DNA from: Methanosphaera sp.
Lineage (GTDB): Archaea > Methanobacteriota > Methanobacteria > Methanobacteriales > Methanobacteriaceae
Reading direction: 5' to 3'
Length of the DNA: 34,154 bases
NCBI RefSeq assembly: GCF_016282985.1
Contig: NZ_JAEELZ010000035.1
Location: 1-34,154 of the forward strand
Position 1 is the first letter of the stretch; the number at the start of each line of letters is the position of its first letter. A program made the translations under genes and the position numbers. Positions 531 to 31,978 of the stretch are shown in pieces. A model generated the notes under the pieces. The model was not told the DNA's origin. It saw only the letters and a program-made list of their open reading frames with translations, and did not search any database.

Positions 531-3500
531 ATGAAGTTTTCAATTATTGTGGATGTATATAATTGTGAAAATTATATAAAAAAATCAATAGACTCTATTT
601 TAAATCAAAGTATTAATTTTGAAGAGAATGTTCAATTAATTATTATTGATAAGGATAGTTCTGATAAAACATTAGATATTTTATATGAATATCAAAACAG
701 TTATCCTAATAATATATTAATTTTTACAAAAGAATTCTTCAAAGAATCATATAATTTATCACAAGTATATGATTATATTACTGGAGAATATGTAACTTTT
801 TTATCCAACAAAGATCATTTTACAAAAAATACATTGAAAGATATTTCTATGTTTTTAAAAAATAATCCTTCTGAAAATGTTGTTTCAATTCCAATAAATA
901 ACCCATCAAATAAAAATGACATGGAATTAAATAATAAATTTAATAATATTTCAGATAGTGGAGATTCAATTGAAATAACAGAAAAATTTGATTTTATTCA
1001 AAATTTCCTAATATCCAGTTTTATTAAATTTGATACATTAAAACGTTTTGATTTTGATTTAAATAATAATTTTAATACTATTGAAGGAACTTTTTTAATA
1101 AATAAAATTTTAGCAGAAGAAAACAAAATAGGACTAATAAAAACATCAAAATATTTTAAAATAGATTCCCAGTCATACATTTATACAACTCCTAAAGATT
1201 TTGAAAAGGAATTCTTTATTTCAAATCTAAATTTTTATTATTCAAATATAATCAATTATTTTAAGAATCAATATGGACATGTTCCCCATTTTATTCAAAA
1301 TATGATTGCATATAATCTATCTAAAGTAGTTCAACATAATTATAATTTTTTAAATAAAAAGGAAGAAGAAAAACTTTTCACATACTTATATAATATTTTG
1401 TTAAATATAGATTCAAAAATAATTATTCAAAATGATTTTATTCAACGACCTATAAAATCTTTTTTAACATATATAAAAAATAATCAACAATCATTCATCA
1501 ACATAGAAAATAATCAATTAGATTTCAAATCTAAAAATTTTTTAATTGATAGATTATCTTATCATCCAATTTATTTAACCTATAAGAAAATAGAGGATAA
1601 TATTTTTACTTTAAGAGGAATGTATAATTCACATTTTAATAGTGATTATTTAACTTTTGAAGCCATTATAGAAAATGAAAATGGTGATACTGAAGTTGTA
1701 GAATGTTTAAAATTAGATTATGTTCAAAAAGAAAAAAAGATATCTTATAATTTAAATAAGCCATGGGAATATACAAATTATTTTGAGTTTAATATTAAAT
1801 TTAAGGATGATAATAATAAAAAAATATATTTCCGAACAAAATACAATGATTTAAAAAATAATTATGAATATTTACCAAAAATAGAGTATGCTTATAAATC
1901 AGGAATTACCGAAGAAAATAACATAATATACTCAGAAACCAATAAAATTTCCTTTGAAAAAGAATTTATTGGAATTGGGAATAGTTACCTGTTTTCAATA
2001 ATTATGGCTATCTATAATACAGGTAATTATCTTGATGAATCAATATTATCTGTTATTAATCAAAGTTTAAATTTTGAAAAATATACACAATTGATTTTAG
2101 TAAATGATGGAAGTACAGATAATTCTCTTGAAATATGTAAAGAATATCAAGCACAATATCCGGATAACATTATATTAATTAATCAACAAAATGCTGGACA
2201 ATCAACTGCACGTAATAACGGTTTAAAACATGCAAAAGGAAGATATGTGAACTTTTTAGACAGTGATGATTATTTATCAGAAGATACTTTAAAACTTGTA
2301 TATGATTTTATTAATAAACATGAAAATGAAACAGATGTTATTGCTATACCTCTTACTCCATTTGGTAGATCACATGATGAACACAAATTAAATTATAAAT
2401 TTAATCAAACAAGAGTAATTAACTTAGAAAAAGAACCGGATAATCCTCAACTCTCAGCTTCTTCATCTTTTATTAAACTAGAAGTATTAGGTGATAATCG
2501 ATTTGATGCCAAATTAATTAGTTCTGAAGATGCACATTTAGTTAATCAAGTGTTATTAAATAAAAAAACATTAGGTGTTATAAATAATGCTTATTATTAT
2601 TATAGAAAACGATATGATACGAGTTCAACAATTGATACGATGACTTTTCAAAAGGAACATTATACTGATAGGTTAAAACACCATTTTATGAAAATAATTA
2701 ATCAATGTATTGAAAAAGAGGGTAAAGTTCCAAAATTCATACAATATGCTTTAATTTATGATATTCACTGGTTAGTTAAAGAAACAGAAACATTAGACAT
2801 ATTTAAAAATGAATTTGAACGTAAAGAATTCTTATATTATATTAAAAAAATATTCAGTTTCTTTGATGATGATGTTATTTTTAAAAACAAAAATATCAAT
2901 GATTATGGATTAAAATTATTTTGTTATTATTTAAAAAAAGAAGATCTTCATTTTGAATTAACAAAAAATGATGTGAAATTAAAAATATCTAATAAAATTA
3001 TAGACAACATGGGATGTCACCCTTTATATATTGATATAATTAAAATTCAGAATGGATTTTTAAATATTTCAGGATTTATTAATTCTTTAATTGACTATAA
3101 TTTTACCTCCATATTAGCTGTTAAAGAAAATGAAAATGGTTCTGTAGAATATTATCCATCAAAACAAGTTACTTATACTTCAAGAAAGAATAAACAATAC
3201 TTAGACATTATTTGGCAATACAAAAAAAATTTTGATATTCAAATTCCATTAAAAAACATATTTAATTCAAAAATTAGATTAAAATTCAATTTTCATAAAA
3301 ATGGAGATAATAGTAACTTTAAAAAGGAAAACATAATTTCTATTGATTCCGATATTAAATTTAATAAACATTCAAAATTTTCTGAAACAATAGGATTTTT
3401 AGTAAAAAAACAATATATTTTATTGTACGAAAATAAGACATTTACCATCATACCTTACACATATAAAAAATTATATTCCTTAGAAAAAGAAGTGTGGAAA

Positions 3501-4682
3501 AAATTAAAAGAAGAAAAACCTTATGGTTATAAAGAGGCATTAAAAGTTAGAAAGTTATATACATACTTATATCCACTAGTAAATAGAATTAAACGAGATA
3601 AAGAAATTTACTTGTTTATGGATAGAAAAGAAATTGCAGATGATAATTCAATGCATCTATTTAAGTATGCAAATACTGTGGATGATAATGTCAAAAAATA
3701 TTTGACCGTATCCAATAAAAGTAGAAATTATACCTCTTTATCTAAAATAGGAAATGTGATTAATTATAATTCACTTAAACATAAATTAATCTATATATTT
3801 GCAGATAAAATCATTTCTACACACCCCTACGAAAGCGAATTAAACCCTTTCTTTGAATATGGAGATGACAGACGTGAATTATTTAATGGTTTAAATGTTT
3901 CAAAAGTATATTTCTTACAACATGGTGTAACAAAAGATAATATTTCTGATTGGATGGGTAAATTTAATCATGATTTATCTTTAATAGTAACAGTTTCCGA
4001 TGAGGAACGTGAATCATTTTTTGTTGAAGGTTATGGATTTGATAAAGAAATTATTCAAACTCTAGGTTTTCCTAGATATGATAATTTAAATAATAAAAAT
4101 TCTAGTAAACATATTTTAATCATTCCTACTTGGAGAAAATATCTGCGTGGAAATAAAGAATTATTTGTTAATTCAGATTACTACAAAAGTTTAAATGGTT
4201 TGTTAAACAATAAAACTTTAATTTCTATTGCAAAAGAAAAAGGTTATACAATTATATTTAAAGCGCACCCCGAACTTGAAAAAAACATCAATGAAACTGA
4301 TGAATTATATATTGATTTATTTGATATCCCTGATGAAGTAAATTTATCTACAGAAGAATCATATCAAGAATTATTCAATAAATCCTCTTTATTAATTACT
4401 GATTACTCTTCTGTATTTTTTGATTTTGCATATATGAAAAAACCAGTAATATATTATCATCCAAATGATAATTATCATTACATGAATAGTTATTTTGACT
4501 ATGAAACTATGGGTTTTGGTGAAATAATAAAAGATGAAAATGATTTAGTAAACTTAATGATAGAATACATGAATAATGATTGTAATATGAAAAAGAAATA
4601 TATCGGACGTGTAGAAAACTTTTTCAAATATAATGACAAAAATAATTGTAAACGTGTATACAATTGGATTAAAAAGAATTAG
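531..4682 (+). CDS. Trimodular glycosyltransferase: two GT2 modules plus TagF-like polyol-phosphate transferase
   Basis: A 1383-residue cytoplasmic or membrane-associated enzyme, probably building a surface glycopolymer. Residues 1-110 and about 488-600 are GT2 (GT-A fold) domains. The second is intact, with NDGSTD near 524-529 and a DSDD metal motif near 577. The first is degraded, with DKDSSD and SNKD at the same places, so it has probably lost catalysis. About 1000-1383 is a CDP-glycerol/ribitol glycerophosphotransferase-type domain (TagB/TagF family) with QHG near 1130, AHPEL near 1245 and DYSSVFFDFAYMKKPV near 1291. The regions after each GT2 domain match each other (GHVPHFIQ/GKVPKFIQ, SYHPIYL/GCHPLYI), so one block of about 480 residues was duplicated. 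ATG 531 is chosen because GGTGA lies at 521-525 and the GT2 fold begins there. An ATG at 471 in the same frame has no such site. Function as a teichoic-acid-like polymerase is inference. Confidence 0.85.
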   Translation: MKFSIIVDVYNCENYIKKSIDSILNQSINFEENVQLIIIDKDSSDKTLDILYEYQNSYPNNILIFTKEFFKESYNLSQVYDYITGEYVTFLSNKDHFTKNTLKDISMFLKNNPSENVVSIPINNPSNKNDMELNNKFNNISDSGDSIEITEKFDFIQNFLISSFIKFDTLKRFDFDLNNNFNTIEGTFLINKILAEENKIGLIKTSKYFKIDSQSYIYTTPKDFEKEFFISNLNFYYSNIINYFKNQYGHVPHFIQNMIAYNLSKVVQHNYNFLNKKEEEKLFTYLYNILLNIDSKIIIQNDFIQRPIKSFLTYIKNNQQSFINIENNQLDFKSKNFLIDRLSYHPIYLTYKKIEDNIFTLRGMYNSHFNSDYLTFEAIIENENGDTEVVECLKLDYVQKEKKISYNLNKPWEYTNYFEFNIKFKDDNNKKIYFRTKYNDLKNNYEYLPKIEYAYKSGITEENNIIYSETNKISFEKEFIGIGNSYLFSIIMAIYNTGNYLDESILSVINQSLNFEKYTQLILVNDGSTDNSLEICKEYQAQYPDNIILINQQNAGQSTARNNGLKHAKGRYVNFLDSDDYLSEDTLKLVYDFINKHENETDVIAIPLTPFGRSHDEHKLNYKFNQTRVINLEKEPDNPQLSASSSFIKLEVLGDNRFDAKLISSEDAHLVNQVLLNKKTLGVINNAYYYYRKRYDTSSTIDTMTFQKEHYTDRLKHHFMKIINQCIEKEGKVPKFIQYALIYDIHWLVKETETLDIFKNEFERKEFLYYIKKIFSFFDDDVIFKNKNINDYGLKLFCYYLKKEDLHFELTKNDVKLKISNKIIDNMGCHPLYIDIIKIQNGFLNISGFINSLIDYNFTSILAVKENENGSVEYYPSKQVTYTSRKNKQYLDIIWQYKKNFDIQIPLKNIFNSKIRLKFNFHKNGDNSNFKKENIISIDSDIKFNKHSKFSETIGFLVKKQYILLYENKTFTIIPYTYKKLYSLEKEVWKKLKEEKPYGYKEALKVRKLYTYLYPLVNRIKRDKEIYLFMDRKEIADDNSMHLFKYANTVDDNVKKYLTVSNKSRNYTSLSKIGNVINYNSLKHKLIYIFADKIISTHPYESELNPFFEYGDDRRELFNGLNVSKVYFLQHGVTKDNISDWMGKFNHDLSLIVTVSDEERESFFVEGYGFDKEIIQTLGFPRYDNLNNKNSSKHILIIPTWRKYLRGNKELFVNSDYYKSLNGLLNNKTLISIAKEKGYTIIFKAHPELEKNINETDELYIDLFDIPDEVNLSTEESYQELFNKSSLLITDYSSVFFDFAYMKKPVIYYHPNDNYHYMNSYFDYETMGFGEIIKDENDLVNLMIEYMNNDCNMKKKYIGRVENFFKYNDKNNCKRVYNWIKKN

Positions 4683-5361
4683 TATAAAATGATTTATTAA
4701 TTATTTTATATTTTTTTCAATTATAAATAAATGCTTGTTTTGTAAAAATTATTAAATAAATCGTTTTGATTTCTTTAATAATTTATTTTTTCTAATGATT
4801 TCAGCATAATAGTATTTTATATATTGAATCATGAAATGTAATTTGTATTTTTTTATTTTTCGAAAAAAAAAATCAAAAATTATATTACATTATAAATCTA
4901 ACTTTAGTAGCTACTTATTTTGCAAAAAATATAAAATACTTTTTCTAAATAACTATTTTTAATAAAATTTTTTCTCTTAATAACGGAAATTCAAAAGATT
5001 TACTTTATTAATGACTTTAAAAGTATATGCAATAGAAGTATTAAACTTAATCAAAGCATTCCATATTATTTAAATCATAATAAGTATATTATTAATAATA
5101 AACATAATAATATACATAATAATTATTTACAATTATTTTTTCATTACGATTAATCTTATTTGAAAGATTTAATCAATAAAAAAAGAAAATTTAATCAAAA
5201 TAATGATTCTAATTATTTTAAATAGTAATTATGATATTAATAACATTTTATTTAAGAATATCCAAAAAATCTAAAAAAATAGAAAAACAGAGGATATTCA
5301 TTATTAAAAATATGGAAAATAATTATTAAATATTAAATAATTATATTTTTGAGGGATTTTT
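4683..5361. other. Long AT-rich gap without a clear gene
   Basis: About 680 bases of very AT-rich DNA separate two glycosyltransferase genes. It holds the hairpin at 4746-4792, a short self-complementary A/T run near 4851-4872 (TTTTTCGAAAAA), and near 5007-5223 a stretch in one frame with few stops but only Asn/Ile/Lys/Tyr-rich, low-complexity coding capacity. That stretch could be a decayed gene end, but nothing in it is recognisable. The promoter of the next gene should lie here. AATTATAT near 5337-5344 is too close to the coding start to be convincing. Confidence 0.4.
4746..4792 (+). terminator. Hairpin with T-rich tail after the GT2-GT2-TagF gene
   Basis: AATTATTAAA at 4747-4756 is perfectly complementary to TTTAATAATT at 4774-4783, and one more A-T pair extends the stem. 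A 17-base loop separates the arms, and ATTTTTTC follows. It lies 64 bases after the stop codon. The stem is all A/T, so the T-run may matter more than the hairpin for archaeal termination. Confidence 0.45.
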
Positions 5362-7395
5362 ATTTATAAAATTTCAATTATAATACCAGTATACAATGTT
5401 GAAAATTATATTGATCAAGCATTTGAATCAATATATAAACAAACAATAGGTTTTGAAAATTTAGAAGTAATTTTTATCGATGATTGTTCAACGGATAATA
5501 GTAAAAATAAATTAGAATACTTGGAAAAAAAATATGATAATGTAGTTTGTGCGTATTTAAAGGAAAATAGTGGATTTGCTGGAAAACCTAGAAACATAGG
5601 ATTAAACTTAGCTAAAGGCCAATACATAATGTTTTTAGATCCTGATGATATATATTTAGAAAATATTTGTGAATTTTTGTACAACAAAATCTCAGAAAAA
5701 AAAATAGACATGGTGTCCGTTAATTTTGGTATAAGAACTGTGGAAAATAAGATTAGTTGGGACCATATTGGACTTACAGATTATCTTAACATTTATTCCT
5801 TGAATGAAAAACCTTCATTATTAATATTACCTCCATCAATTTGGACAAAAATTTATAAAAAAGAGTTTTTATTAAAAAACAACATCAAATTCAACGAATA
5901 TTTACCTGGTCAAGATGCCTTATTTATGTACGAAGTATTATTAAAGGCAAATGGAATTTCATACTATAACGAATCTTTAGTTGTTTATGGAAAGAGAGAT
6001 TATTCTAAATCTTCTCAAAAATCTGTTACAGATGACTTAACTTTTAATCGATTATTAGAATATCTGAATATTTATGAAATCATGTATCAAACATTAGCAG
6101 AATCAAACCCCGATGTTGTTGTTGCATTAAACAGCCATATTTCATATTGGACATTATTATTACAAAAATCATCTGCAAACACTTCAGAAAATCTCATTCT
6201 AATTGAAAAATGTATGAAATTACTGGAAAAAATTAACCAATATCCCTCAAATAACTTGGAACTGTTAAATGTATTAAATAGATCTAAAACATATACATTC
6301 ATAAATTTATTAAATTTTCAAAATAATAAGATAAATGAAGATTTAATGCTAAAAGAAAAAGTTTACGAAGTTTTATTTAAAGAAAGTGTTGAATCAAATA
6401 CTATTGAAAAAATTGAAGAAAATTCTCAAATAAAAAATGATTTAAATATTCAAGAAAAGATTTCAATAATTACCTATGTATATAATGCTGAAAAATATTT
6501 ACATGATTGTTTAAATAGTTTACTCCATCAAAATTTTACAGACTTTGAAATAATCTGTATTGAAGATGCATCAACTGATAGATCAGCCAAAATATTAGAC
6601 TACTTCATAAAAAAAGATTCTAGAATCAAAGTAATTAAAAATAAAGAAAAAATAGGACCTAACAAATCAAGAAATATTGGAATTAAATATTCTAAAGGAG
6701 AATATATTCATTTTATTGATTCAAATGATTGGATAGATGAAAATACGTTAGAACTTTTATATCATACTGCTAAAAAAGAAAATACTGATGTAATTTTATA
6801 TAATTCGCTTAACTATGATATGGATAAAAAAATGTTTTTCAAACCAAAAAATTCTTTTAAATTTAATATAATATGTAATAAAACATTCAATTTCAAAGAT
6901 ATAGACAATGAAATAATTTTTGAAATTCCACATAATCCATTCAATAAATTTTTTAAAAAATCATTTTTAATAAATAATTCAATTTGTTTTGAAGAAAAAT
7001 TATATGATGACTATAACATTTTTTTCTTTAAAACCATCTTTGAAGCTGAAAAAATATTTTCATTGAAAAATTATTATTATAATAAACGTATCTCTAATGA
7101 ATCCATGAAAATAAATAATTATGATTCCTGTGAGAACTTAAAAAGCTGTGAAATAATTTTAAATTATTTTAAAAATAACGATTTATATGATTCTTATAAA
7201 AAAAATTTTTTGAATTATATTGTTAATTCTCTTCAAAATATCTTTAATGAAAATAATCCAAAATTCGAAGAAAAAACATCCCAAGACCTGAAAAATAAAA
7301 TACTTGAATTCATCTTAAAAAATAATCTCGAAAAAGACTTTGAAGAAAATTTAAGTCAAAGTAACTTAAATTTTATAAATACATTTAAACTTTAA
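5362..7395 (+). CDS. Two-domain GT2 glycosyltransferase with probable ATT start
   Basis: Two GT2 domains in about 677 residues. The first, from KISIIIPVYNVENY, has DDCSTD near residue 40 and DPDD near 93. The second starts near 366 (KISIITYVYNAEKY) with EDASTD near 402 and DSND near 453. Both keep the nucleotide-sugar and metal-binding positions, so two transfers in one polymer-building cycle are plausible. The start is odd. The frame is open only after the TGA at 5350-5352, and GAGG at 5351-5354 stands 7 bases before ATT at 5362, which would give MYKISIIIPVYN. The first conventional start, TTG 5521, would remove the nucleotide-binding half of the first domain. Either ATT initiates or an ATG has mutated. 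The substrate is unknown. It sits between another glycosyltransferase and a coiled-coil gene on the same strand. Confidence 0.75.
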   Translation: MYKISIIIPVYNVENYIDQAFESIYKQTIGFENLEVIFIDDCSTDNSKNKLEYLEKKYDNVVCAYLKENSGFAGKPRNIGLNLAKGQYIMFLDPDDIYLENICEFLYNKISEKKIDMVSVNFGIRTVENKISWDHIGLTDYLNIYSLNEKPSLLILPPSIWTKIYKKEFLLKNNIKFNEYLPGQDALFMYEVLLKANGISYYNESLVVYGKRDYSKSSQKSVTDDLTFNRLLEYLNIYEIMYQTLAESNPDVVVALNSHISYWTLLLQKSSANTSENLILIEKCMKLLEKINQYPSNNLELLNVLNRSKTYTFINLLNFQNNKINEDLMLKEKVYEVLFKESVESNTIEKIEENSQIKNDLNIQEKISIITYVYNAEKYLHDCLNSLLHQNFTDFEIICIEDASTDRSAKILDYFIKKDSRIKVIKNKEKIGPNKSRNIGIKYSKGEYIHFIDSNDWIDENTLELLYHTAKKENTDVILYNSLNYDMDKKMFFKPKNSFKFNIICNKTFNFKDIDNEIIFEIPHNPFNKFFKKSFLINNSICFEEKLYDDYNIFFFKTIFEAEKIFSLKNYYYNKRISNESMKINNYDSCENLKSCEIILNYFKNNDLYDSYKKNFLNYIVNSLQNIFNENNPKFEEKTSQDLKNKILEFILKNNLEKDFEENLSQSNLNFINTFKL

Positions 7396-12493: not shown

Positions 12494-12766
12494 CAAAAGA
12501 TAGAACAAAAACACTTTTCTAATAAATATTATATAATTTCTGGTGAAATGTTAATTCCATCTTTGAATAAAAATAGTAGTAATTTACTTAATATATTAAA
12601 ATATTTAAAAAAGCATTTAAAAAGTAGTTCTAACGATTTTCATAAAGTATTTTTATAAAACTAAACAAAATATTATCTATCTAAGCATAATCATTTTTAA
12701 TAAACTTAACTAAGAATACTTTTTTGGGATATTAATTAATATTTTATATTTAATGTGGGTAATATC
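12494..12766. other. Divergent intergenic region upstream of the LicC-LicA fusion
   Basis: With the adhesin promoter this makes a gap of about 365 bases between divergent genes. I see no gene in it. TTTTTATAAAA at 12650-12660 is a possible TATA box for the rightward LicC-LicA gene, which would give a leader of about 85 bases. TTTTATAT at 12742-12749 lies too close to the start codon. Confidence 0.35.
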
Positions 12767-14365
12767 ATGGAAAAAAATGCAATAATTATGGCTGCCGGTA
12801 AATCAGATAGATTTGCACCTTTTAGCTATGAAAAACCAAAGGGACTCTTTATTGTTAGGGGAGAAGTCTTGATTGAAAGACAGATAGAACAATTAATTGA
12901 AGCTGACGTAAATGAAATCTATGTTGTTGTTGGATACATGAAAGAGAAATTTTTCTATTTAGAACAGAAATATCCTCAGGTTCAATTAGTTGTAAATAAC
13001 ACCTATGGAAAATATGGAAACATTTATTCACTTTATGTAACGAGAGAATACTTAAAAAACACGTTTATATGTTGTGCTGATCATTATTTTTTAAGTAATC
13101 CCTTTTTAGAAAATAATATAGAAAATAAATCATATAGAGCCTGTACTTACATAGCCGGAAAATTCCGTGAATTTGGAATAGATTACTCCGATGCAAATAT
13201 TATCACAGGATGTTATGTTGGTGGTAAAGATAGGATGGCTATGATTGGTCATGCCTATTTCAATGAAAGATTTTCAAAAATTTTCAGAAAAACTCTTGAA
13301 GATGAAATTGATGATTTTGGGGTTGCAAATATGTTCTGGGAACAATATTATGCAACTCATTTGAAAGATTTGACATTATACATGAACAAATTTGACAAAA
13401 ATGAACTTTTAGAGTTTGATTCAATAGATGATTTAAGACAATTTGATTCTGATTTTTTATTAAATGTAGATTCTGAAATTGTTAATAATATCTGTAAGAC
13501 ATTAGATTGTCATCCAAATGAGATAAAAGAGATTGAAATTATTCAAGCAGGATTAACAAACGTTTCTTTCAAATTTTCAGTAAATGGACATGAATATGTA
13601 TACAGACATCCTGGAGGAACGGCAGATAATCTAATTGACAGAAAAACAGAGTTGTACACCCAATATAAAGCAAAAGAGTATAATCTTGATAATTCATTAA
13701 TTTACATGGACAAAACCGGTTGGAAAATTTCGCATTTTATCCAGAACATCATACCATGTGACATAATATCCAATGAAACACATTTGAAACAATCAATGGA
13801 AGCACTCCATAAAACACAAGAAATGCCAATAACTGATGAAGTTAAATTATTTGACAATGTTATCGAAGGAAAAAAATTAATGGCTAAGGCTTGCAGTACC
13901 AAAGGAAATTTATTCAAAGAATTTGAAGAATTAATTTCCAAAGTCGATTTAGTGGATTCATTTGTTAAAGAAGAAAGAGAAAAATATGGTATAGAGTTAG
14001 TGGTCAGTCACAATGATGTCTATGAACCTAACTTTATTTCCACAACAGAAGGTGACTTTTATTTAATTGATTGGGAATATTCTGGAATAAATGACCCTGT
14101 TAATGATGTTGCAGCCATATTTACCAGATATGAATATACGGAGGACATTCGTGAAAAATTATTAAAATCATTTTATAATAGAGAATTAACAGAGTTAGAA
14201 CATCGCCATGCCATGGGCCAATCAATATTAACCGCTTTTTATTGGATAAATTGGGGATTGTTTAAAGGTAGTGTTGGAGAAGACGATGGATTTTTCTTTT
14301 TACCCGCATATAGATACTTAGTAAAACATGTTGATGATGTAATTGATAGTTATGAGGAGATATAA
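12767..14365 (+). CDS. LicC-LicA fusion: nucleotidyltransferase plus choline-type kinase
   Basis: A 532-residue two-domain enzyme. Residues 1-230 are a LicC-type nucleotidyltransferase (IIMAAGKSDRFAP, then KPKGL, CCADHYF), which in bacteria makes CDP-choline from phosphocholine and CTP. About 235-532 are a choline/ethanolamine-kinase fold with HNDVYEPN at 415-422 and IDWEYSG from 434, the phosphotransfer and magnesium motifs. One chain could thus phosphorylate an amino-alcohol and activate it with CTP. The alcohol could be choline, ethanolamine or a related compound, and PntC-type phosphonate cytidylyltransferases are an alternative for the N-terminal part. No LicD-type transferase is in the window. 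ATG 12767 is preferred, with GGGT six bases before it; GTG 12755 is possible. The stop overlaps the next start by one base (TAATG), so the two genes are translationally coupled. Confidence 0.85.
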   Translation: MEKNAIIMAAGKSDRFAPFSYEKPKGLFIVRGEVLIERQIEQLIEADVNEIYVVVGYMKEKFFYLEQKYPQVQLVVNNTYGKYGNIYSLYVTREYLKNTFICCADHYFLSNPFLENNIENKSYRACTYIAGKFREFGIDYSDANIITGCYVGGKDRMAMIGHAYFNERFSKIFRKTLEDEIDDFGVANMFWEQYYATHLKDLTLYMNKFDKNELLEFDSIDDLRQFDSDFLLNVDSEIVNNICKTLDCHPNEIKEIEIIQAGLTNVSFKFSVNGHEYVYRHPGGTADNLIDRKTELYTQYKAKEYNLDNSLIYMDKTGWKISHFIQNIIPCDIISNETHLKQSMEALHKTQEMPITDEVKLFDNVIEGKKLMAKACSTKGNLFKEFEELISKVDLVDSFVKEEREKYGIELVVSHNDVYEPNFISTTEGDFYLIDWEYSGINDPVNDVAAIFTRYEYTEDIREKLLKSFYNRELTELEHRHAMGQSILTAFYWINWGLFKGSVGEDDGFFFLPAYRYLVKHVDDVIDSYEEI

Positions 14366-15078
14366 TGAATATACCAATAATATTAGCTGGAGGAGTAGGT
14401 TCTAGATTAGGTGCAGACAAACCTAAACAATTTATTGAAGTTCTTGGAAAACCAGTATTAGTATATACTATTGAAGCTTTCCAAAATCATCCCGAAATTG
14501 ATGCGATTGAGGTAGTTTGTATTGAAAGTCATATAGACTACTTAAAAGAACTTATTAAGGAATATAACCTGGATAAAGTAAAATGGATAACCAAAGGTGG
14601 AAAAGATTTTCAACATTCAGTAATTAATGGTGTGAATAATTTAAAAGACAAAATAAATGATGAAGATATAGTATTAGTACATTATGGTGCTTCACCATTT
14701 GTTTCTGAAGATATTATTAGTGATGCCATAAGAGTATGTAAAGAAAAAGGCAATTCCTCACCTGCAATGTCTTCCGTATTGTTATTAGGTAGTAATGATG
14801 GAGAAAAATCTACGCAATGGATTGACAGGGATAAAGTAATGGTACTTAATTCACCTCAGTGTTTTAAATTTTCTTATGTGTCCCAGTTATACGAGGAAGC
14901 CATAGAAAAAGGATTACTTGAAAAAATTGAACCACATACCACAACCCTCATGTATTATATGGGTAGAGAAATATATTTCTCCAAATCAAGTCAAACAAAT
15001 ATAAAAATTACTACAAAAGAGGATATAGATTTATTTGAAGGATATTTATTAATGAAAGAATCCAGAAAAAATAGTTAA
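14365..15078 (+). CDS. IspD/TarI-family cytidylyltransferase
   Basis: A 237-residue cytidylyltransferase starting with PIILAGGVGSRLGADKPKQF, the CTP-binding loop of the IspD/TarI family. IspD acts in the MEP isoprenoid route, but archaea use mevalonate, so a TarI-like role is more likely: activating ribitol 5-phosphate or another polyol phosphate with CTP. The usual H-D-A-x-R-P-F segment is replaced by HYGASPF near residue 110, so substrate or chemistry may differ. Other conserved pieces are WIDRDKV and NSPQCFKF in the middle and NIKITTKEDI near the C-terminus. It is coupled to the LicC-LicA gene by a one-base overlap, like the neighbouring tarI and licA/licC genes of pneumococcal lic1 loci. 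No TarJ-type reductase is present here. Confidence 0.75.
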   Translation: MNIPIILAGGVGSRLGADKPKQFIEVLGKPVLVYTIEAFQNHPEIDAIEVVCIESHIDYLKELIKEYNLDKVKWITKGGKDFQHSVINGVNNLKDKINDEDIVLVHYGASPFVSEDIISDAIRVCKEKGNSSPAMSSVLLLGSNDGEKSTQWIDRDKVMVLNSPQCFKFSYVSQLYEEAIEKGLLEKIEPHTTTLMYYMGREIYFSKSSQTNIKITTKEDIDLFEGYLLMKESRKNS

Positions 15079-24157: not shown

Positions 24158-24943
24158 ATGAAAATGAAAGTTGTCATCCTTGCGGGCGGATTTGGTACAA
24201 GAATATCAGAAGAATCACATTTAAAACCTAAACCAATGATTGAAATTGGAGAAAAACCAATACTATGGCACATTATGAAAATTTATTCTTATTATGGTTT
24301 TAATGAATTTATAATTTGTTTAGGTTACAAATCCCATATGATTAAAGAATTTTTTGCAGATTATTATTTACACACATCAGATGTCACCATAGACTTAGAA
24401 ACCAATGAATTAAAAATTCATAACAACTATGCGGAACCATGGAAAGTTACACTCGTAGATACTGGTTTAAACACCATGACCGGTGGAAGAATAAAAAGAA
24501 TAAAACCATATTTACCTAAAGATGAACCATTCATGTTGACTTATGGTGATGGAGTTTGTGATGTAGATTTAAACGAGTTACTGGAATATCATAAGAATCA
24601 TGGAAAGTTAGCCACTATCACAGCAATCAATTTAGATGCACGTTTTGGTGTTCTTAGAATAGATGATGAAAACACTATTACACAATTTTCAGAGAAAAGT
24701 AAAGCTGATGGTGGATGGATTAATGGTGGATTCATGGTATTAGAACCTGAAGTAATAGATTATATTACTGATGATACCACTATTTTTGAAAAAGCTCCGT
24801 TAGAAAACTTAGCACATGATGGAGAACTTAAATCATATAAACACAGAGGCTTCTGGAAGTGTATGGATACAAAACGTGACCATGATGCACTTGAAAAAAT
24901 GTGGAATGAAGATAATGCACCATGGTATATTTGGAAAGAATAG
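24158..24943 (+). CDS. rfbF: Glucose-1-phosphate cytidylyltransferase
   Basis: A 261-residue enzyme making CDP-glucose from glucose 1-phosphate and CTP, the entry to CDP-linked 6-deoxy and 3,6-dideoxy sugars. LAGGFGTRISEESHLKPKPM is the nucleotide-binding signature of the CDP-specific branch. LTYGDGVCDVDL holds the metal-binding Asp, and INGGFMVLEPEV the sugar-binding part. Length is standard. AGGAG lies five bases before ATG 24158. It begins a co-directional cluster that runs to about 34034, with only 12 bases before rfbG. Confidence 0.95.
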   Translation: MKMKVVILAGGFGTRISEESHLKPKPMIEIGEKPILWHIMKIYSYYGFNEFIICLGYKSHMIKEFFADYYLHTSDVTIDLETNELKIHNNYAEPWKVTLVDTGLNTMTGGRIKRIKPYLPKDEPFMLTYGDGVCDVDLNELLEYHKNHGKLATITAINLDARFGVLRIDDENTITQFSEKSKADGGWINGGFMVLEPEVIDYITDDTTIFEKAPLENLAHDGELKSYKHRGFWKCMDTKRDHDALEKMWNEDNAPWYIWKE

Positions 24944-24955
24944 CTGGTGAAATAA

Positions 24956-26023
24956 TTGGAAAAGTTTTTTAAAAACAAAACGGTTCTAGTTACTGGACAT
25001 ACCGGTTTTAAAGGGTCCTGGATATCAAAAATTTTAAGTAAATGGAATGCAAATGTTATAGGTTATTCTTTAGAAGCTGAAACAAATCCCAATTTGTATG
25101 ATTTACTAAAATTAGATGAAAGTGTTACATCAGTTATTGGTGATGTTCGTAATTTAAAACTCTTAAGAAAGACATTTAACGAATATTCACCCGAAATTGT
25201 TATTCATATGGCTGCTCAGCCAATTGTAAGAAAAAGTTATGAAAATCCAGTGTATACCTATGAAACAAACGTTATGGGCACTGTGAATGTATGTGAATGT
25301 ATTCGAGAATGTGAAAATGTAGAATCTTTTCTTAATGTAACTACAGACAAAGTCTATGAAAATAAGGATAAGAATCATTCATTCTCAGAAGATGAAAAAC
25401 TTGATGGATACGATCCGTATTCCAATAGTAAATCTTGTTCAGAACTAGTCACACATTCATATAATAATTCATTCTTTAAAGAACAGGGTATTAAATGTTC
25501 CACGGCCAGAGCAGGTAATGTGATTGGTGGAGGAGATTTTGCAATTGATCGTATTATCCCTGATTGTGTTAGAGCATCAATTAATAACGAAAACATCATA
25601 ATTAGAAATCCACATTCAATTAGACCATATCAACACGTGCTAGAACCATTATTACTCTATTTAACAATTGTTCAAAAACAATATCATAATGAAAAATATG
25701 CGGGTTATTATAATGTTGGTCCAGATGATGTGGATTGCATAACCACTGGTGAAATAACTGATTTATACTGCAAATATTATAATAAAAACAATGACAACCC
25801 AATTAAATGGATTAACAAATCAGATAATGGACCACATGAAGCAGCATTATTAAAATTAAATAATCAAAAAATTAAAGACACTTTTAACTGGAAACCCGTT
25901 TGGAATATTGAAAAAGCTGTTGAAAAAACTGTTGAATGGACAAAAAGTTACATAAATAATGAAGACATTATTGAATGCACTACTAATCAAATCAATGAAT
26001 ATCTAAAACAAAAAGGTGATTGA
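24956..26023 (+). CDS. rfbG: CDP-glucose 4,6-dehydratase
   Basis: A 355-residue extended short-chain dehydrogenase that converts CDP-glucose to CDP-4-keto-6-deoxyglucose with bound NAD. The Rossmann motif TGHTGFKGSW is at 13-22, followed by HMAAQPIVRKSYENP, TTDKVYEN and the catalytic DPYSNSK (Tyr-x3-Lys). The late segments RPYQHVLEPL and GYYNVGPDD are characteristic of RfbG. Translation starts at TTG 24956, set by GGTGA at 24946-24950 with a five-base spacer; there is no nearby ATG. Its end lies just before or overlaps the start of rfbH, indicating coupled translation. Confidence 0.95.
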   Translation: MEKFFKNKTVLVTGHTGFKGSWISKILSKWNANVIGYSLEAETNPNLYDLLKLDESVTSVIGDVRNLKLLRKTFNEYSPEIVIHMAAQPIVRKSYENPVYTYETNVMGTVNVCECIRECENVESFLNVTTDKVYENKDKNHSFSEDEKLDGYDPYSNSKSCSELVTHSYNNSFFKEQGIKCSTARAGNVIGGGDFAIDRIIPDCVRASINNENIIIRNPHSIRPYQHVLEPLLLYLTIVQKQYHNEKYAGYYNVGPDDVDCITTGEITDLYCKYYNKNNDNPIKWINKSDNGPHEAALLKLNNQKIKDTFNWKPVWNIEKAVEKTVEWTKSYINNEDIIECTTNQINEYLKQKGD

Positions 26024-26036
26024 AATTTTTGAGGAC

Positions 26037-27362
26037 ATGACTGAAAGTGAAGCAAGAAACGAAATATTACAATACGTAAAAGAATATGCTAAAAAATATC
26101 ATAATATTCCTGAAGAATACAAAGAAGGGGACAGAATAGTTTATGCTTCAAGAGTATATGATGAAAATGAAATGGTTAATCTTGTGGACAGTTCTTTAGA
26201 ATTTTGGTTAACCAGCGGTAGATATACCATAGAATTTGAAGAAAAGTTAAAACAATATTTAGGTGTAAACTATTGTTCATTTGTTAATTCAGGTTCTTCA
26301 GCAAATCTTTTAGCATTTATGACCCTGACTTCACCTCTTCTTGAAGAACGTCAAGTTAAACCAGGTGATGAAATCATTACAGTAGCTGCAGGGTTTCCTA
26401 CAACAGTAGCACCTATCATACAATATGGGGCTGTTCCAGTATTTGTTGATGTAACAATACCCCAATACAATATTGATATTAAACAATTAGAAGAAGCATT
26501 GTCTCCTCGAACAAAAGCCGTTATGATTGCACACACATTAGGTAATCCGTTTGACTTAAAAGCTGTTAAAAATTATTGTGAAGAACATAATTTATGGTTA
26601 ATCGAAGATAATTGTGATGCTTTAGGCACTACTTATACTATTGATGGAATAGAAAAGTTTACTGGTACAATCGGAGATATAGGAACCAGTAGTTTTTATC
26701 CTCCACACCATATGACAACAGGAGAAGGAGGAGCCGTATACACAGATAACCCATTATTACATAGAATCATTCGTTCATTACGTGACTGGGGAAGAGATTG
26801 TCAATGCCAATCAGGACAGGACAACCTTTGTGGAAACAGATTTACAAAAAAATACGGAGAATTACCATTAGGTTACGATCACAAATACGTTTATTCACAC
26901 TTTGGATATAACCTCAAAGCAACGGATATGCAGGCAGCAATTGGATGTGCTCAAATAGAAAAATTCCCATTATTTGTAGAAAAAAGAAAAGAAAATTTCA
27001 AATACTTGTATGATGGACTAAAAGATTTATCGGATAAACTCATATTACCTCAAAAAGTAGAAAATTCAGATCCTAGCTGGTTCGGATTTATGATAACTGT
27101 TAAAGAAGGTGTAAACAGGAACGAAATAGTACAGTTCCTGGAAGAACATGGAGTACAAACTAGAATGTTATTTGCCGGAAACATTATCAAACACCCTTGT
27201 TTTGATGAAATAAGAGATGATTATAGCAAATATAAAGTAATTGGAAATCTGGAAAACACAAATCGTATTATGAATGATACATTTTGGATTGGCCTATATC
27301 CCGGAATGACAAATGTAAAATTGGATTATATGATTAAATGTATTAAAAATTCATTAGAATAA
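26037..27362 (+). CDS. rfbH: CDP-4-keto-6-deoxyglucose 3-dehydrase (E1, RfbH)
   Basis: A PMP-dependent, iron-sulfur dehydrase removing the 3-hydroxyl of CDP-4-keto-6-deoxyglucose, about 441 residues from ATG 26037. Its fold is that of DegT-type aminotransferases, but the PLP lysine is replaced by His224 in YPPHHMTTGEGG, the hallmark of E1. Cys255, Cys257 and Cys265 in DCQCQSGQDNLCG, with Cys193 in EDNCDAL, match the 2Fe-2S ligand pattern C-x-C-x7-C of the Yersinia enzyme. The start is uncertain: ATG 26037 fits homologs (MTESEARNEIL) but has only a close GAGG. GTG 26016 has no site, and ATT 26025 has GGTGA five bases upstream. In bacteria E1 needs a reductase partner (E3/RfbI), and none is in this window. 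Confidence 0.93.
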   Translation: MTESEARNEILQYVKEYAKKYHNIPEEYKEGDRIVYASRVYDENEMVNLVDSSLEFWLTSGRYTIEFEEKLKQYLGVNYCSFVNSGSSANLLAFMTLTSPLLEERQVKPGDEIITVAAGFPTTVAPIIQYGAVPVFVDVTIPQYNIDIKQLEEALSPRTKAVMIAHTLGNPFDLKAVKNYCEEHNLWLIEDNCDALGTTYTIDGIEKFTGTIGDIGTSSFYPPHHMTTGEGGAVYTDNPLLHRIIRSLRDWGRDCQCQSGQDNLCGNRFTKKYGELPLGYDHKYVYSHFGYNLKATDMQAAIGCAQIEKFPLFVEKRKENFKYLYDGLKDLSDKLILPQKVENSDPSWFGFMITVKEGVNRNEIVQFLEEHGVQTRMLFAGNIIKHPCFDEIRDDYSKYKVIGNLENTNRIMNDTFWIGLYPGMTNVKLDYMIKCIKNSLE

Positions 27363-27409
27363 ATTACACAAAAATACGCTTAAAACAATAATTAAAAAAA
27401 AGTGGTTAT

Positions 27410-28192
27410 ATGAATTGTACAGAAGAAAGAATGGTTGAAATACTTAAAATTTTGAAAAAGGATTTTGGAGTAATTGCTGTTAAATCAGAATTTGAAACTG
27501 AAGGATCTAGAAAAGATGAATTAACTAAATTACGTGATATAATATCAAAATCTGGCTTAAAAATGTATATTAAAATTGGTGGATGTGAAGCCGTAAGAGA
27601 TCTTGATGATTGTAAAATATTAGGTGCTGATGGAATTATGGCACCTATGATTGAAACTCCATTTGCAGCATCTAAATTTAAAAATGCTTACAACAAAGTA
27701 TTTTACTCCAGTGAAGAAGGATCAATTGATAAAATAATTAATTTAGAAACAATTACTGCATATAACAATATGGATGATATTTTTAAAGAAAATCAGAATT
27801 TTTTAGATACTGTTGTTATTGGAAGAAGTGATTTTTCACGCTCATGTGGAATACCTAAATCAGAGGTTAACGGAAAAGAAATGCTTGAATATTGTAGAAA
27901 TATAATTAACCTTTCAAATGATTATGGATTTAATTCAGCTTTTGGAGGTAGTATATCCGTAAATAGTATTGATTTTATTAAAAAATTACAGGATTCAATT
28001 GATAGAATAGAAACACGAAAAATCGTTTTTGATATGAATAAACTTGGAGAAAATTATGCTGAAGCCATTGATAATGCAATTAAATTCGAATATTTATATC
28101 TTAGAAACAAATTAAATTATTATCAATCAATTGTTAATGAAGATAAACAAAGATTTGATGAATTAAAAAACAGAGTAGATGTAGAATTATAG
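27410..28192 (+). CDS. HpcH/HpaI-type aldolase family protein
   Basis: A 260-residue protein resembling the HpcH/HpaI aldolase/citrate lyase family (PEP/pyruvate TIM-barrel superfamily). GVIAVKSEFETEGS near 22-35, KMYIKIGGCEAVRDL near 60 and GADGIMAPMIETPFAASKF near 78-96 hold the likely metal-binding acids; VVIGRSDFSRS near 140 resembles the phosphate- or carboxylate-binding part. Family members cleave or form bonds between pyruvate (or PEP) and aldehydes. Here the gene lies between rfbH and a 2-keto-3-deoxygluconate-kinase-like gene, so supply of pyruvate to the ThDP enzyme, or synthesis of a keto-deoxy sugar unit, is plausible but unproven. The annotated substrate classes of this family are not reliable at this distance. 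It starts at ATG 27410, 47 bases after rfbH. Confidence 0.7.
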   Translation: MNCTEERMVEILKILKKDFGVIAVKSEFETEGSRKDELTKLRDIISKSGLKMYIKIGGCEAVRDLDDCKILGADGIMAPMIETPFAASKFKNAYNKVFYSSEEGSIDKIINLETITAYNNMDDIFKENQNFLDTVVIGRSDFSRSCGIPKSEVNGKEMLEYCRNIINLSNDYGFNSAFGGSISVNSIDFIKKLQDSIDRIETRKIVFDMNKLGENYAEAIDNAIKFEYLYLRNKLNYYQSIVNEDKQRFDELKNRVDVEL

Positions 28193-28199
28193 TGATTTT

Positions 28200-29219
28200 A
28201 TGAAAGTTGTTACTTTTGGAGAGATAATGTTAAGATTATCTCCTTTGGGATATGGTAGATTTGTTCAAAGTAATAAGTTTGATGTTACTTATGGAGGTAG
28301 TGAAGCAAATGTCGCATTATCTTTAGCAAATTATGGTATTGCTGTCGATTTTGTTTCAAAGGTACCTGATAATGAAATAGGACAATCAGCTATAAACCTT
28401 TTAAGACAGTATGGTGTTGGAATAAAAAACATTAGAAAAGATGGTGAAAGGTTAGGAATTTATTATCTTGAAAAAGGAGCTAGTCAAAGACCTTCAAAGG
28501 TAATTTACGACAGAAAATATTCTTCTATTTCTAAATCAACATTTGATGATTTTGATTGGGATAGTATATTCAAATCAGCAGAATGGTTCCATATTTCTGG
28601 TATAACTCCTGCTTTAAGTGAATCACTAGCTGAAATATCAAAATTTGCTTGTAAAAAAGCTAAAGAACATGGATTAAGAATTAGTTGTGATTTAAATTAT
28701 CGATCAAAACTATGGACCCCTGAAGAAGCCAATAAAGTTATGAGTGAAATTATTAAATATGTTGATGTATGCATCGCTAACGAAGAAGATATTGAAAAAG
28801 TATTTGGCATTAAAGCTGAGGATAGTGATGTTGACAAAGGCAAAATAAACTATCAGTCATATTCAAATGTTGCAAAACAGGTACATGAAAAATATGGTTG
28901 TAAATATGTTGCATGTACTTTAAGAACTTCAATATCAGCCAGCGATAATAAATGGAAATCATTAATTTATGATGGAAACAAAGTCATTCAATCCAAAGAA
29001 TATTTGATTCATCTTGTTGATAGAGTAGGTGGGGGAGATAGTTTTTCTGCAGGTCTCATCTATGGCTTTATGAATAATTTAACTTTAGAAGAAACATTAG
29101 AATTTGCAACAGCTGCAAGTTGTCTTAAACAAACTATTGAAGGAGATTATAATTTAGTTACTGTCAATGAAGTAAACGATTTAGCAAAAGGGAATACATC
29201 TGGAAGAGTACAAAGATAA
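28200..29219 (+). CDS. PfkB-family sugar kinase, KDG-kinase-like
   Basis: A 339-residue ribokinase-fold kinase. The start MKVVTFGEIMLRLSPLGYG and the TYGGSEANVALSLA motif resemble 2-keto-3-deoxygluconate kinases. RVGGGDSFSAGLIYGF near 275-290 is the C-terminal PfkB signature with the catalytic Asp and anion hole. ISCDLNYRSKLW near 160 fits the same subfamily. It would phosphorylate a sugar or keto-deoxy sugar acid; the real substrate is unknown. It starts 7 bases after the aldolase gene and ends 12 bases before the ThDP enzyme, so it belongs to the same operon. Kinase plus aldolase recalls the KDG-to-pyruvate route, but the aldolase is not of the KDPG type. Confidence 0.85.
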   Translation: MKVVTFGEIMLRLSPLGYGRFVQSNKFDVTYGGSEANVALSLANYGIAVDFVSKVPDNEIGQSAINLLRQYGVGIKNIRKDGERLGIYYLEKGASQRPSKVIYDRKYSSISKSTFDDFDWDSIFKSAEWFHISGITPALSESLAEISKFACKKAKEHGLRISCDLNYRSKLWTPEEANKVMSEIIKYVDVCIANEEDIEKVFGIKAEDSDVDKGKINYQSYSNVAKQVHEKYGCKYVACTLRTSISASDNKWKSLIYDGNKVIQSKEYLIHLVDRVGGGDSFSAGLIYGFMNNLTLEETLEFATAASCLKQTIEGDYNLVTVNEVNDLAKGNTSGRVQR

Positions 29220-29231
29220 AAAGGGATTAAC

Positions 29232-31061
29232 ATGAAGATTAGAGTAGCAGATTATATAGCAGAACTTTTAGCGGACAAAGGAATTGATACATTATTTACA
29301 GTAGTGGGTGGTGGAGCAATGCACCTCAATGATGGGTTTGGACATAATCCTAAAATTAAATGTATACACAACCATCATGAACAAGCTTGTTCCATAGCTG
29401 CAGAAGGATATTATAGAATGTCAAATAAACTTCCTGCAGTTTGTGTAACTACAGGCCCTGGTGGAACAAATGCTATTACTGGTGTTTTAGGAGCATACCT
29501 TGATTCAATACCTATGTTAATTATTTCAGGACAAGTTAAGTATGAAATGACTGTTGCAAGTACTGGTCTTGACTTACGTCAGTTAGGAGATCAGGAATGG
29601 GATATTGTTTCTACAGTAAATTCTATGACAAAATATGCTGAAATGGTTGTTGACGCCAATAAAATCAAATATTGTATTGAAAAAGCAATTTATTTGGCAA
29701 TGGATGGTAGACCAGGTCCTTGTTGGGTTGATATTCCATTAGACGTTCAAGGAGCTATAATCGATACTGATGATTTAATTGAATTTGATCCAAAAGAATT
29801 AGAGGCTAATTCAGTACAAGAAGTTACAGAGGATATCCTTGATAAGGTAATTGAAAAAATCAAAACTGCTAAAAGACCTGTAATATATGCAGGTAGCGCT
29901 ATTAGAACAAATGATGCATATGATTCATTTTTAAATGTCATCAATAAATTGCAGATTCCTGTAGTTAATGCCTGGAATGCAACCGATTCAATAGAATATG
30001 ATAATCCATTATGTGTTGGATGTGGTGGTTCATTTGGTGATAGACCAGCAAATTTTGCTGTTCAAAATAGTGATTTAATATTATCTTTAGGTTGCAGATT
30101 AAGTACTAGACAAGTTTCCTTTGCATATGACAGTTGGGCAAGAGAAGCTTACAAAATTATGGTAGAAATAGACCCTGCAGAAATAAATAAACCTACTCTT
30201 AATATTGATTTACCAATTCAATCAGACATTAAAGATTTCCTAGAGAAATTCAATGCATATCTTGAAAAAGAATATTCTGATTATACTTTTAAAAATGAGG
30301 ATTGGATAAAACAATGCAATATATGGAAAGAAAAATATCCTGTATGTGATAAGTCCAAATATGAACAGAAAGATAAAATAAACGTTTATGCATTTTTAGA
30401 TACTTTATCTGATTGTATGAAAGAAAATGATAAAATTGTTGTTGCTAATGGAGCTGCCTGTGCTTGTATACATGGATATAAACTTAAAAAAGGTCAACGG
30501 TTAGTGGTTAATTCCGGTGTTGCATCAATGGGTTATGACTTACCTGCAGCTATTGGAGCTTGCTTCGGGATTGATCAAAATGATATAATCTGCGTTTGTG
30601 GTGATGGTAGTATACAAATGAATTTACAGGAACTTCAAACCATAATACACCATAAATTACCGATTAAATTATTCTTAATAAATAATGATGGATATCAATC
30701 AATACGTATCACACAACGTTCATTCTTTGAACAGCCATTTATTGGAATAGGTTCAGACAGTGGTGATATCAGTTTCCCAAATATGGAAAAAATAGCCTAT
30801 GCTTACGGATTTAAATATAATCAATGTTCTGATATTAATAAGTTAAAAGACACTATAAATAACACATTGAATACAAGAGAACCTGTTATTTGTGAAGTAT
30901 TTGTGGATACTGCACAATCATTTGAACCAAAAAGTGCTTCAAAGAAACTGCCTAACGGAAAAATGGTTTCAGCTCCACTTGAAGATATGAAACCTTTCCT
31001 GGATAGAAAAGAATTAGAAGAAAACATGTACATTGATTTAATTGAAAACGAGGATAACTGA
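29232..31061 (+). CDS. Acetolactate-synthase-like ThDP-dependent enzyme
   Basis: A 609-residue ThDP enzyme with the three-domain order of acetolactate synthase. The activating Glu50 lies in NHHEQACSIAAEGY. The central FAD/nucleotide-type domain spans about 190-350, and the ThDP/metal motif runs from G457-D458-G459 to N484-N485 in the C-terminal domain. The N-terminal GPGGTNAITG segment is conserved. Classical acetolactate synthase makes branched amino acids, but the position between rfbH-cluster genes and a reductase resembles YerE of Yersinia, which adds a two-carbon unit from pyruvate to a CDP-4-keto-3,6-dideoxyhexose. That role is inference from context. The donor could also be another 2-keto acid. 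AGGG lies before ATG 29232, and the next gene follows after two bases. Confidence 0.85.
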   Translation: MKIRVADYIAELLADKGIDTLFTVVGGGAMHLNDGFGHNPKIKCIHNHHEQACSIAAEGYYRMSNKLPAVCVTTGPGGTNAITGVLGAYLDSIPMLIISGQVKYEMTVASTGLDLRQLGDQEWDIVSTVNSMTKYAEMVVDANKIKYCIEKAIYLAMDGRPGPCWVDIPLDVQGAIIDTDDLIEFDPKELEANSVQEVTEDILDKVIEKIKTAKRPVIYAGSAIRTNDAYDSFLNVINKLQIPVVNAWNATDSIEYDNPLCVGCGGSFGDRPANFAVQNSDLILSLGCRLSTRQVSFAYDSWAREAYKIMVEIDPAEINKPTLNIDLPIQSDIKDFLEKFNAYLEKEYSDYTFKNEDWIKQCNIWKEKYPVCDKSKYEQKDKINVYAFLDTLSDCMKENDKIVVANGAACACIHGYKLKKGQRLVVNSGVASMGYDLPAAIGACFGIDQNDIICVCGDGSIQMNLQELQTIIHHKLPIKLFLINNDGYQSIRITQRSFFEQPFIGIGSDSGDISFPNMEKIAYAYGFKYNQCSDINKLKDTINNTLNTREPVICEVFVDTAQSFEPKSASKKLPNGKMVSAPLEDMKPFLDRKELEENMYIDLIENEDN

Positions 31062-31063
31062 AT

Positions 31064-31978
31064 ATGAAAATTGTTATTACCGGCAGTACAGGAATGATTG
31101 GCTTAGCTTTAATAGAATTATTACATGATGAACATGATATTTATGCTATTGTTAGACCATCAAGTTCTAAAATAGATCTCTTAAAAGAATACTCGAACGT
31201 CAATATTATTGAATGTGATTTAAATAATTTAAAAAACATCTTAAATTTTATTAACAAAGCGGATGTATTTTTCCATTTAGGATGGGAGGGTACTACAGGA
31301 AACAAGAATCGTAATGCTAATGAATTACAATTGCAAAATATTCAGTATACTCTCGATGCCATTAAGCTTGCTGAAAAATTAAAGTGTAAATCATTTGTTG
31401 GATCAGGTTCACAAGCAGAGTATGGGATTAAAAACGAATTATTAAATGAAAATACGTCCATTAATCCTATAACCAGTTATGGAATTGCAAAATATGCGGC
31501 AGGCAAATTAGGTAAAAATTTATCCGAAGAATTAAACGTAAAATTTTGTTGGACCAGAATTTTAAGTGTCTACGGACCAGGATTTAATAATACTATGATT
31601 AATTCATGTATAGAATCCCTTATCAATAACATCCCATTTGATACAACAGAGGGAGAACAAGAATGGGATTATTTGTATTCTTTAGATTGTGCTAAAGCAT
31701 TATATGAAATTGCTCTGAATGGACATGACGGTGAGACTTATGTTCTGGGTTCTGGTAAAACAAGAGCCATAAAAGAATATATTACAATACTCAAAGAAAC
31801 TATGAATCCTGATTGTGAAATTAATTTTGGAAAATTGGATTATTCCGAAAATCAGATAATGTACTTATGTGCAGATATTAGTAAATTAAAAAAAGATACA
31901 AATTTTACTGTTGAAACATCATTTGAAGAAGGTATTTCTGAAACAATTAATTGGTATAAAAAGCATTATAAAAATTAA
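31064..31978 (+). CDS. Extended SDR: NAD-dependent sugar epimerase/reductase
   Basis: A 304-residue extended short-chain dehydrogenase. GSTGMIG at 7-13 binds NAD(P), and Tyr139-x3-Lys143 (SYGIAKYAAGK) is the catalytic pair. SGSQAEYG near 114 carries the Ser/Thr region, and EGEQEWDYLYSLDCAKAL is typical of nucleotide-sugar epimerases and reductases. It starts two bases after the ThDP gene, so it likely acts on that enzyme's product. In the yersiniose route YerF reduces the added acetyl group, and in abequose and related routes a similar SDR reduces C4. Either is possible. Confidence 0.88.
   Translation: MKIVITGSTGMIGLALIELLHDEHDIYAIVRPSSSKIDLLKEYSNVNIIECDLNNLKNILNFINKADVFFHLGWEGTTGNKNRNANELQLQNIQYTLDAIKLAEKLKCKSFVGSGSQAEYGIKNELLNENTSINPITSYGIAKYAAGKLGKNLSEELNVKFCWTRILSVYGPGFNNTMINSCIESLINNIPFDTTEGEQEWDYLYSLDCAKALYEIALNGHDGETYVLGSGKTRAIKEYITILKETMNPDCEINFGKLDYSENQIMYLCADISKLKKDTNFTVETSFEEGISETINWYKKHYKN

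Follow-up and report, generated by a model that had tools for sequence, protein, structure and literature searches.

A candidate archaeal GgaB-type phosphoglycan polymerase with a decayed glycosyltransferase module in Methanosphaera

Introduction

The window analyzed here, a stretch of 34,154 nucleotides from Methanosphaera sp. (contig NZ_JAEELZ010000035.1), carries a gene whose product contains a GT2 glycosyltransferase block twice, followed by a TagF-like domain. This raises the question of what such a protein might make in an archaeon, and why one of the two blocks, having lost its catalytic motifs, is still present. Teichoic-acid gene homologues and phosphate-rich walls have been described in M. 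ruminantium, and the data from this organism point to unidentified wall glycopolymers (Leahy 2010, PMC2812497); a PF04464-type gene of this organism has been labelled teichoic acid biosynthesis (PMC5816558). The general idea of teichoic-acid-like genes in these methanogens is already known, as is most of the overall plan. New here are the link to GgaB, the argument drawn from the QHG motif and the pattern of decay in the distal modules. The reading favored in this work, with moderate confidence, is that the gene encodes an archaeal GgaB-type phosphoglycan polymerase in which the first copy is kept as a non-catalytic part.

The gene and its two modules

The features of the gene are the following:

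531..4682, + strand: complete gene of the putative two-module GgaB-like polymerase (1383 aa), in the order GT2-helical-beta, GT2-helical-beta, TagF-like
531..1862, + strand: copy 1 module (aa 1-444), with a decayed GT-A/GT2 domain, helical linker and beta-sandwich (BLASTP self-alignment, motif table, AlphaFold)
804..815, + strand: SNKD (aa 92-95) in copy 1, where the metal motif DSDD has been lost
1986..3308, + strand: copy 2 module (aa 486-926), with an intact GT2 carrying DSDD and SED, helical linker and beta-sandwich
2259..2270, + strand: DSDD (aa 577-580), the metal motif that copy 2 has kept intact
3588..4673, + strand: TagF-like domain PF04464, QHG variant (aa 1020-1380)

An RBS-like GGTGA stands immediately before position 531, and an in-frame ATG is also present upstream at 471. 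Two GT2 stretches and PF04464 were detected by Pfam in the protein. An earlier note, made from the letters of this DNA, had claimed a two-fold GT2-helical-beta block, and the self-alignment that it proposed bears this out: by BLASTP, aa 3-444 matched aa 487 to about 925 with 142 of 453 positions identical (31%; 168 bits, E 6e-51), and the similarity reached far past the GT2 fold into the helical and beta regions. Every landmark pair named in that note was located, with a period of 482–485 residues: GHVPHFIQ at 249 and GKVPKFIQ at 731, SYHPIYL at 343 and GCHPLYI at 828, ENENGD at 381 and ENENGS at 866. The loss of the metal motif in copy 1 is real and the losses are broader than had been claimed, as the base aspartate motif SED was replaced by IEG, NDGSTD by DKDSSD and ARN by NLS; neither the DxD nor the base aspartate of an active GT2 is found in this copy. 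Copy 2 has the intact DSDD attributed to it, and SED as well.

Structure prediction gave confident models for both modules. Copy 1 was modeled as a GT-A domain, a helical linker and a beta-sandwich (pLDDT 89, pTM 0.87), from an input alignment that contained intact copies, and copy 2 together with the TagF-like domain reached a pLDDT of 91.8. The best Foldseek matches of both models were TarS, RmlT and TarP; in the second model, TarL matched the TagF-like portion.

Relationship with GgaB of Bacillus

Full-length relatives were found in Bacillota by a contig scan, among them the GgaB of Bacillus halotolerans in the tag/gga locus, the identity of which is backed by the synteny tagG-tagH-ggaA-ggaB-gtaB-mnaA-tagU, following the gene order of the Bacillus tag/gga locus (PMC8753576). 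Copy 2 plus the TagF-like domain aligned with this GgaB over its full length, with 36% identity in 927 aligned positions (E 1e-167), and the B. halotolerans protein also has the QHG motif. The Methanosphaera protein combines a GT2, its appendage and a QHG TagF-like domain with full-length similarity, as a bifunctional polymerase of the GgaB type does. The product of GgaA and GgaB is poly(GlcGalNAc-1-P), with no polyol (PMC11841062), and capsule polymerases with the same GT-A/TagF-like domain order yield oligosaccharide phosphates (Litschko 2018, PMC5974469). The relatives in Bacillota fit the lateral acquisition that has been inferred for many methanogen glycosyltransferases (PMC3445992).

Separately, a 920-aa protein (L086, 4926-7685) was observed on a contig labelled uncultured Bacillales, with domain scores about those of the Methanosphaera protein of L069/L070; this MAG contig may have been given a wrong label or put in the wrong bin.

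The TagF-like domain and its putative donor

The PF04464 domain at aa 1020-1380 scored 162.5 bits against a Pfam gathering cut-off of 22.1, and this gene is the only one with PF04464 in the source genome. Its motifs are QHG, LGFPRYDNL, PTWR, KAHP and ITDYSS. The H-G, H-P and DYSS motifs that had been claimed are present as QHG, KAHP and ITDYSS, and QHG and KAHP align with the two catalytic histidines of TagF (H444 and H584), both of which are retained. Together with the 36% identity to Bacillus GgaB and a fold nearest to TarS, RmlT and TarP, this domain upholds the proposal that an archaeon has a TagF-like polymerase of the teichoic-acid type.

The more specific assignment to the CDP-polyol phosphotransferases was weakened. 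Glycerol-phosphate polymerases, TagF and those like it, have been described with WHG and hexose-phosphate transferases with QHG (PMC11666461), a rule which comes from a single remark in the literature and one characterized relative. WHG is found in TagF and Cps3D and in many stand-alone archaeal PF04464 proteins; the 1383-aa protein has QHG where the CDP-polyol subgroup has WHG (or WHA). QHG stood at the first catalytic histidine in 44 of the 47 module-bearing archaeal proteins, the remaining three pattern matches being RHG, NHA and KHG, and the PF04464 scores of this module-bearing family were far below those of the stand-alone WHG-type proteins.

The alternative, which we regard as unlikely, is a CDP-polyol polymerase, in which the IspD/TarI-like gene of the contig would supply a CDP donor, the TagF-like domain would transfer glycerol- or ribitol-phosphate from this donor and copy 2 would glycosylate the polyol. 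Two genes of the window bear on it:

12755..14365, + strand: LicC-like nucleotidyltransferase fused to a choline-kinase-like domain, possibly for CDP-donor synthesis
14365..15078, + strand: IspD/TarI-like cytidylyltransferase (112 bits to PF01128), a possible CDP-polyol source

An IspD of the MEP pathway is not expected in archaea, and since both genes lie 8–10 kb away on the same contig, a supply of CDP-polyol is possible. Of the genomes of the genus, six of the 13 with PF04464 and none of the seven without it have an IspD-like gene scoring over 100 bits, and the fold of the module resembles glycosyltransferases of poly-ribitol-phosphate. Against this alternative stand the QHG motif and the polyol-free product of GgaB. 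Moreover, the module family is present in genomes G003, G004, G006 and G008 (99% complete), none of which has an IspD-like gene scoring over 100 bits; such a gene was present in just five of the 12 Methanosphaera genomes with module-type proteins, so IspD is not required for the family and was discarded as a marker of it. In G012 (L166), the IspD-like gene and a neighbor sized like the LicC-LicA fusion directly adjoin two LicD-containing proteins, and these genes may therefore feed LicD instead; the set suggests a phosphocholine- or polyol-phosphate decoration. The single LicD gene of the source genome lies elsewhere than 12755-15078.

TagD was also considered as a donor source and rejected, since all of its matches in the 99 genomes searched were under the curated cut-off, mostly at a level general in archaea. 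Matches reaching about E 1e-32 or better were found in nine of these genomes, G004 and G008 not being among them. In these two Methanosphaera genomes, both 99% complete, the searches found nothing that matched TagD or TarI convincingly, and the PF04464 proteins are all of the QHG type, none having WHG. QHG, the kinship with GgaB and the lack of a convincing TagD or TarI in G004 and G008 point to a nucleotide sugar as the most likely donor, and a sugar-1-phosphate polymer appears likelier as the product than a polyol phosphate.

Additionally, three proteins with two TagF-like domains per chain, QHG in the first and WHG in the second, were observed (L059, 7215-10334; L060, 161-3481; L062, 7013-10588). 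From their motifs, they are possibly combined sugar-phosphate and polyol-phosphate transferases.

Number and decay of modules in the family

Relatives of the 1383-aa protein occur in many genomes across the genus and the family (Methanobacteriaceae), with one to five modules ahead of TagF as counted with HMMs built in this analysis. In the 13 non-redundant multi-module proteins, the TagF-adjacent module always has DxD and the base (13/13), whereas DxD is gone in 10 of the 22 distal modules and the base also in seven of those 10. This difference in DxD loss gave p 0.005 by Fisher's test and p 0.03 by a sign test (6 vs 0 proteins), values that are optimistic because the rows are related. At least six changes among distal modules were counted by parsimony on the tree. 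DxD, base or both are missing in 15 of 39 single-module proteins, so decay is not restricted to distal modules.

In a 28-row tree, copy 1 grouped with module two of G012 (97/92) and module one of G015 (95/90), in a part of the tree where long branches converge, and the 18 modules that are single or adjacent to TagF stood separately (86/92). The branch of copy 1 measured 1.4–1.57 changes per site vs 0.55–0.6 for copy 2. This grouping of copy 1 with distal modules from other species makes an old duplication probable, a dating that is favored by the trees and not proven. A recent duplication inside the 1383-aa protein was accordingly disfavored, although the AU test does not reject a clade of copies 1 and 2: with 28 rows the forced clade was 26 log units worse (AU p 0.055), and with 79 rows the AU p was 0.20. 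The internal duplication proposed earlier therefore stands as a repeat, but one that is probably old and family-wide and not peculiar to this protein. A literal fusion of ggaA and ggaB was also discarded, the comparison being kept as an analogy only, since in the tree GgaA-like proteins do not group with the distal modules of archaea; GgaA forms a long, weakly resolved row, and the record from which it was taken has a frameshift in the gene.

In two close genomes, tandem single-module genes (L039, 14059-16713; L041, 15920-18574) showed 92–94% identity in GT2 plus appendage and 70% in TagF. Recombination may have exchanged TagF domains inside such arrays, or the array members compared may not correspond to each other.

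Retention of copy 1

It might be argued that copy 1 is a functionless leftover in decay, kept in frame merely because active domains come after it. All of its catalytic motifs are lost and its branch is long, as given above, and because a frameshift in copy 1 would cost copy 2 and the TagF-like domain, its open frame is no proof of function. However, the sequence of copy 1 still fits a confident GT-A-helical-beta model (with intact copies in the alignment), an internal start could have freed copy 2, and decayed copies last in several lineages with dN/dS below 1 in relatives. For the single-module protein with a decayed GT2 in G048 and G054, dN/dS was 0.19 (GT2) and 0.14 (appendage), and for three decayed distal GT2 domains in G007 and G018 it was 0.39, 0.62 and 0.08, with few differences; these values are those of decayed modules of relatives and not of copy 1. 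We consider the leftover explanation unlikely as well. The decayed yet retained module described in the earlier note is supported by these comparable domains. A retained non-catalytic role of copy 1 is plausible.

A broader proposal, quite unlikely in our estimate, is that these proteins are phosphoglycan polymerases whose GT2 modules (one to five, active or inactive) have been tuned by evolution, the inactive ones serving as a chain-binding or length-setting arm that feeds an indispensable GT2-TagF core.

Other genes of the contig

Downstream, a double-GT2 gene (5350-7395) has an open frame that starts right behind a TGA at 5350, with a complete first GT2 from about 5365. No ATG, GTG or TTG was found ahead of this GT2, where ATT codons only follow an RBS-like GAGGG; therefore, either a rare start is used or the start codon has been lost. 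Further on, in the region 24158-31978, RfbF, RfbG and RfbH equivalogs scored above the curated cut-offs, and after them come an aldolase-like and a KDG-kinase-like protein, a TPP enzyme resembling acetolactate synthase, and an SDR. From its gene content, the region looks like a pathway for CDP-3,6-dideoxyhexose or a yersiniose-like branched sugar in an archaeon.

Proposed mechanism and significance

Donor type, polymer and the part played by copy 1 are inferred in the following mechanism. The GT-A domain of copy 2, which is intact, would add a hexose and the C-terminal TagF-like domain would add a sugar-1-phosphate from a nucleotide sugar. By taking turns, the two domains would build a chain of poly(glycosyl-sugar-1-phosphate), its carrier probably being a lipid, and this chain would become a teichoic-acid-like surface polymer. 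Copy 1 would be a module of this type, old and no longer able to transfer sugar, that is kept as a non-catalytic part, perhaps for chain binding, oligomerization or positioning; this role is taken solely from the analogy of fold with TarS and RmlT and their helical and beta appendages.

Some PF04464 proteins, such as TagB, add single units. The enzyme could on this precedent be a side-chain or capping enzyme placing one glycosyl-phosphate unit onto a glycan, and the flippase, Galf mutase, CDP-dideoxyhexose and possible branched-sugar genes of the contig fit the decoration of a repeat unit. Nevertheless, two intact catalytic domains per chain are what the bifunctional GgaB, CslB and Cps1B have, and a capping role is considered very unlikely.

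The GgaB-type reading puts forward a particular family of candidate polymerases in the gut methanogen Methanosphaera, related to M. ruminantium, and it predicts a sugar-1-phosphate and not a polyol phosphate as product. The catalytic loss observed repeatedly in distal modules is open to in vitro testing. The archaeal occurrence with one to five modules, several of them inactivated, is an interesting variant.

Comparison with known systems

The TagF of Staphylococcus epidermidis, the TarL of S. aureus and Cps3D share with the archaeal protein a PF04464-type domain, two catalytic histidines and DYSS, but they are of the WHG or WHA type and use CDP-polyol donors. TarS, TarP and RmlT, in which a GT-A domain carries appended domains (helical linker and beta), are the best structural match of the module (Foldseek E 3e-21), at 12–17% identity and with partial superposition only (TM about 0.5–0.57). 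They are free-standing and decorate poly-ribitol-phosphate, whereas the module here is fused in a larger chain. The capsule polymerases CslB, Cps1B, Cps12B and Ccs2, likened here by description and not by sequence, also have an N-terminal GT-A and a C-terminal TagF-like domain and make oligosaccharide phosphates (PMC5974469), but many have TPR domains, and they have one GT-A. The GgaA of Bacillus, encoded next to ggaB, has a module of the same type without TagF. The closest likeness in domain order is to Bacillus GgaB itself, which together with GgaA makes the minor wall teichoic acid and has an identical GT2-helical-beta-TagF-like arrangement and QHG. The Methanosphaera protein differs from it in its archaeal host and in the extra front module fused to it, which is devoid of catalytic residues and, in a weakly resolved tree, has no specific sister relationship to GgaA.
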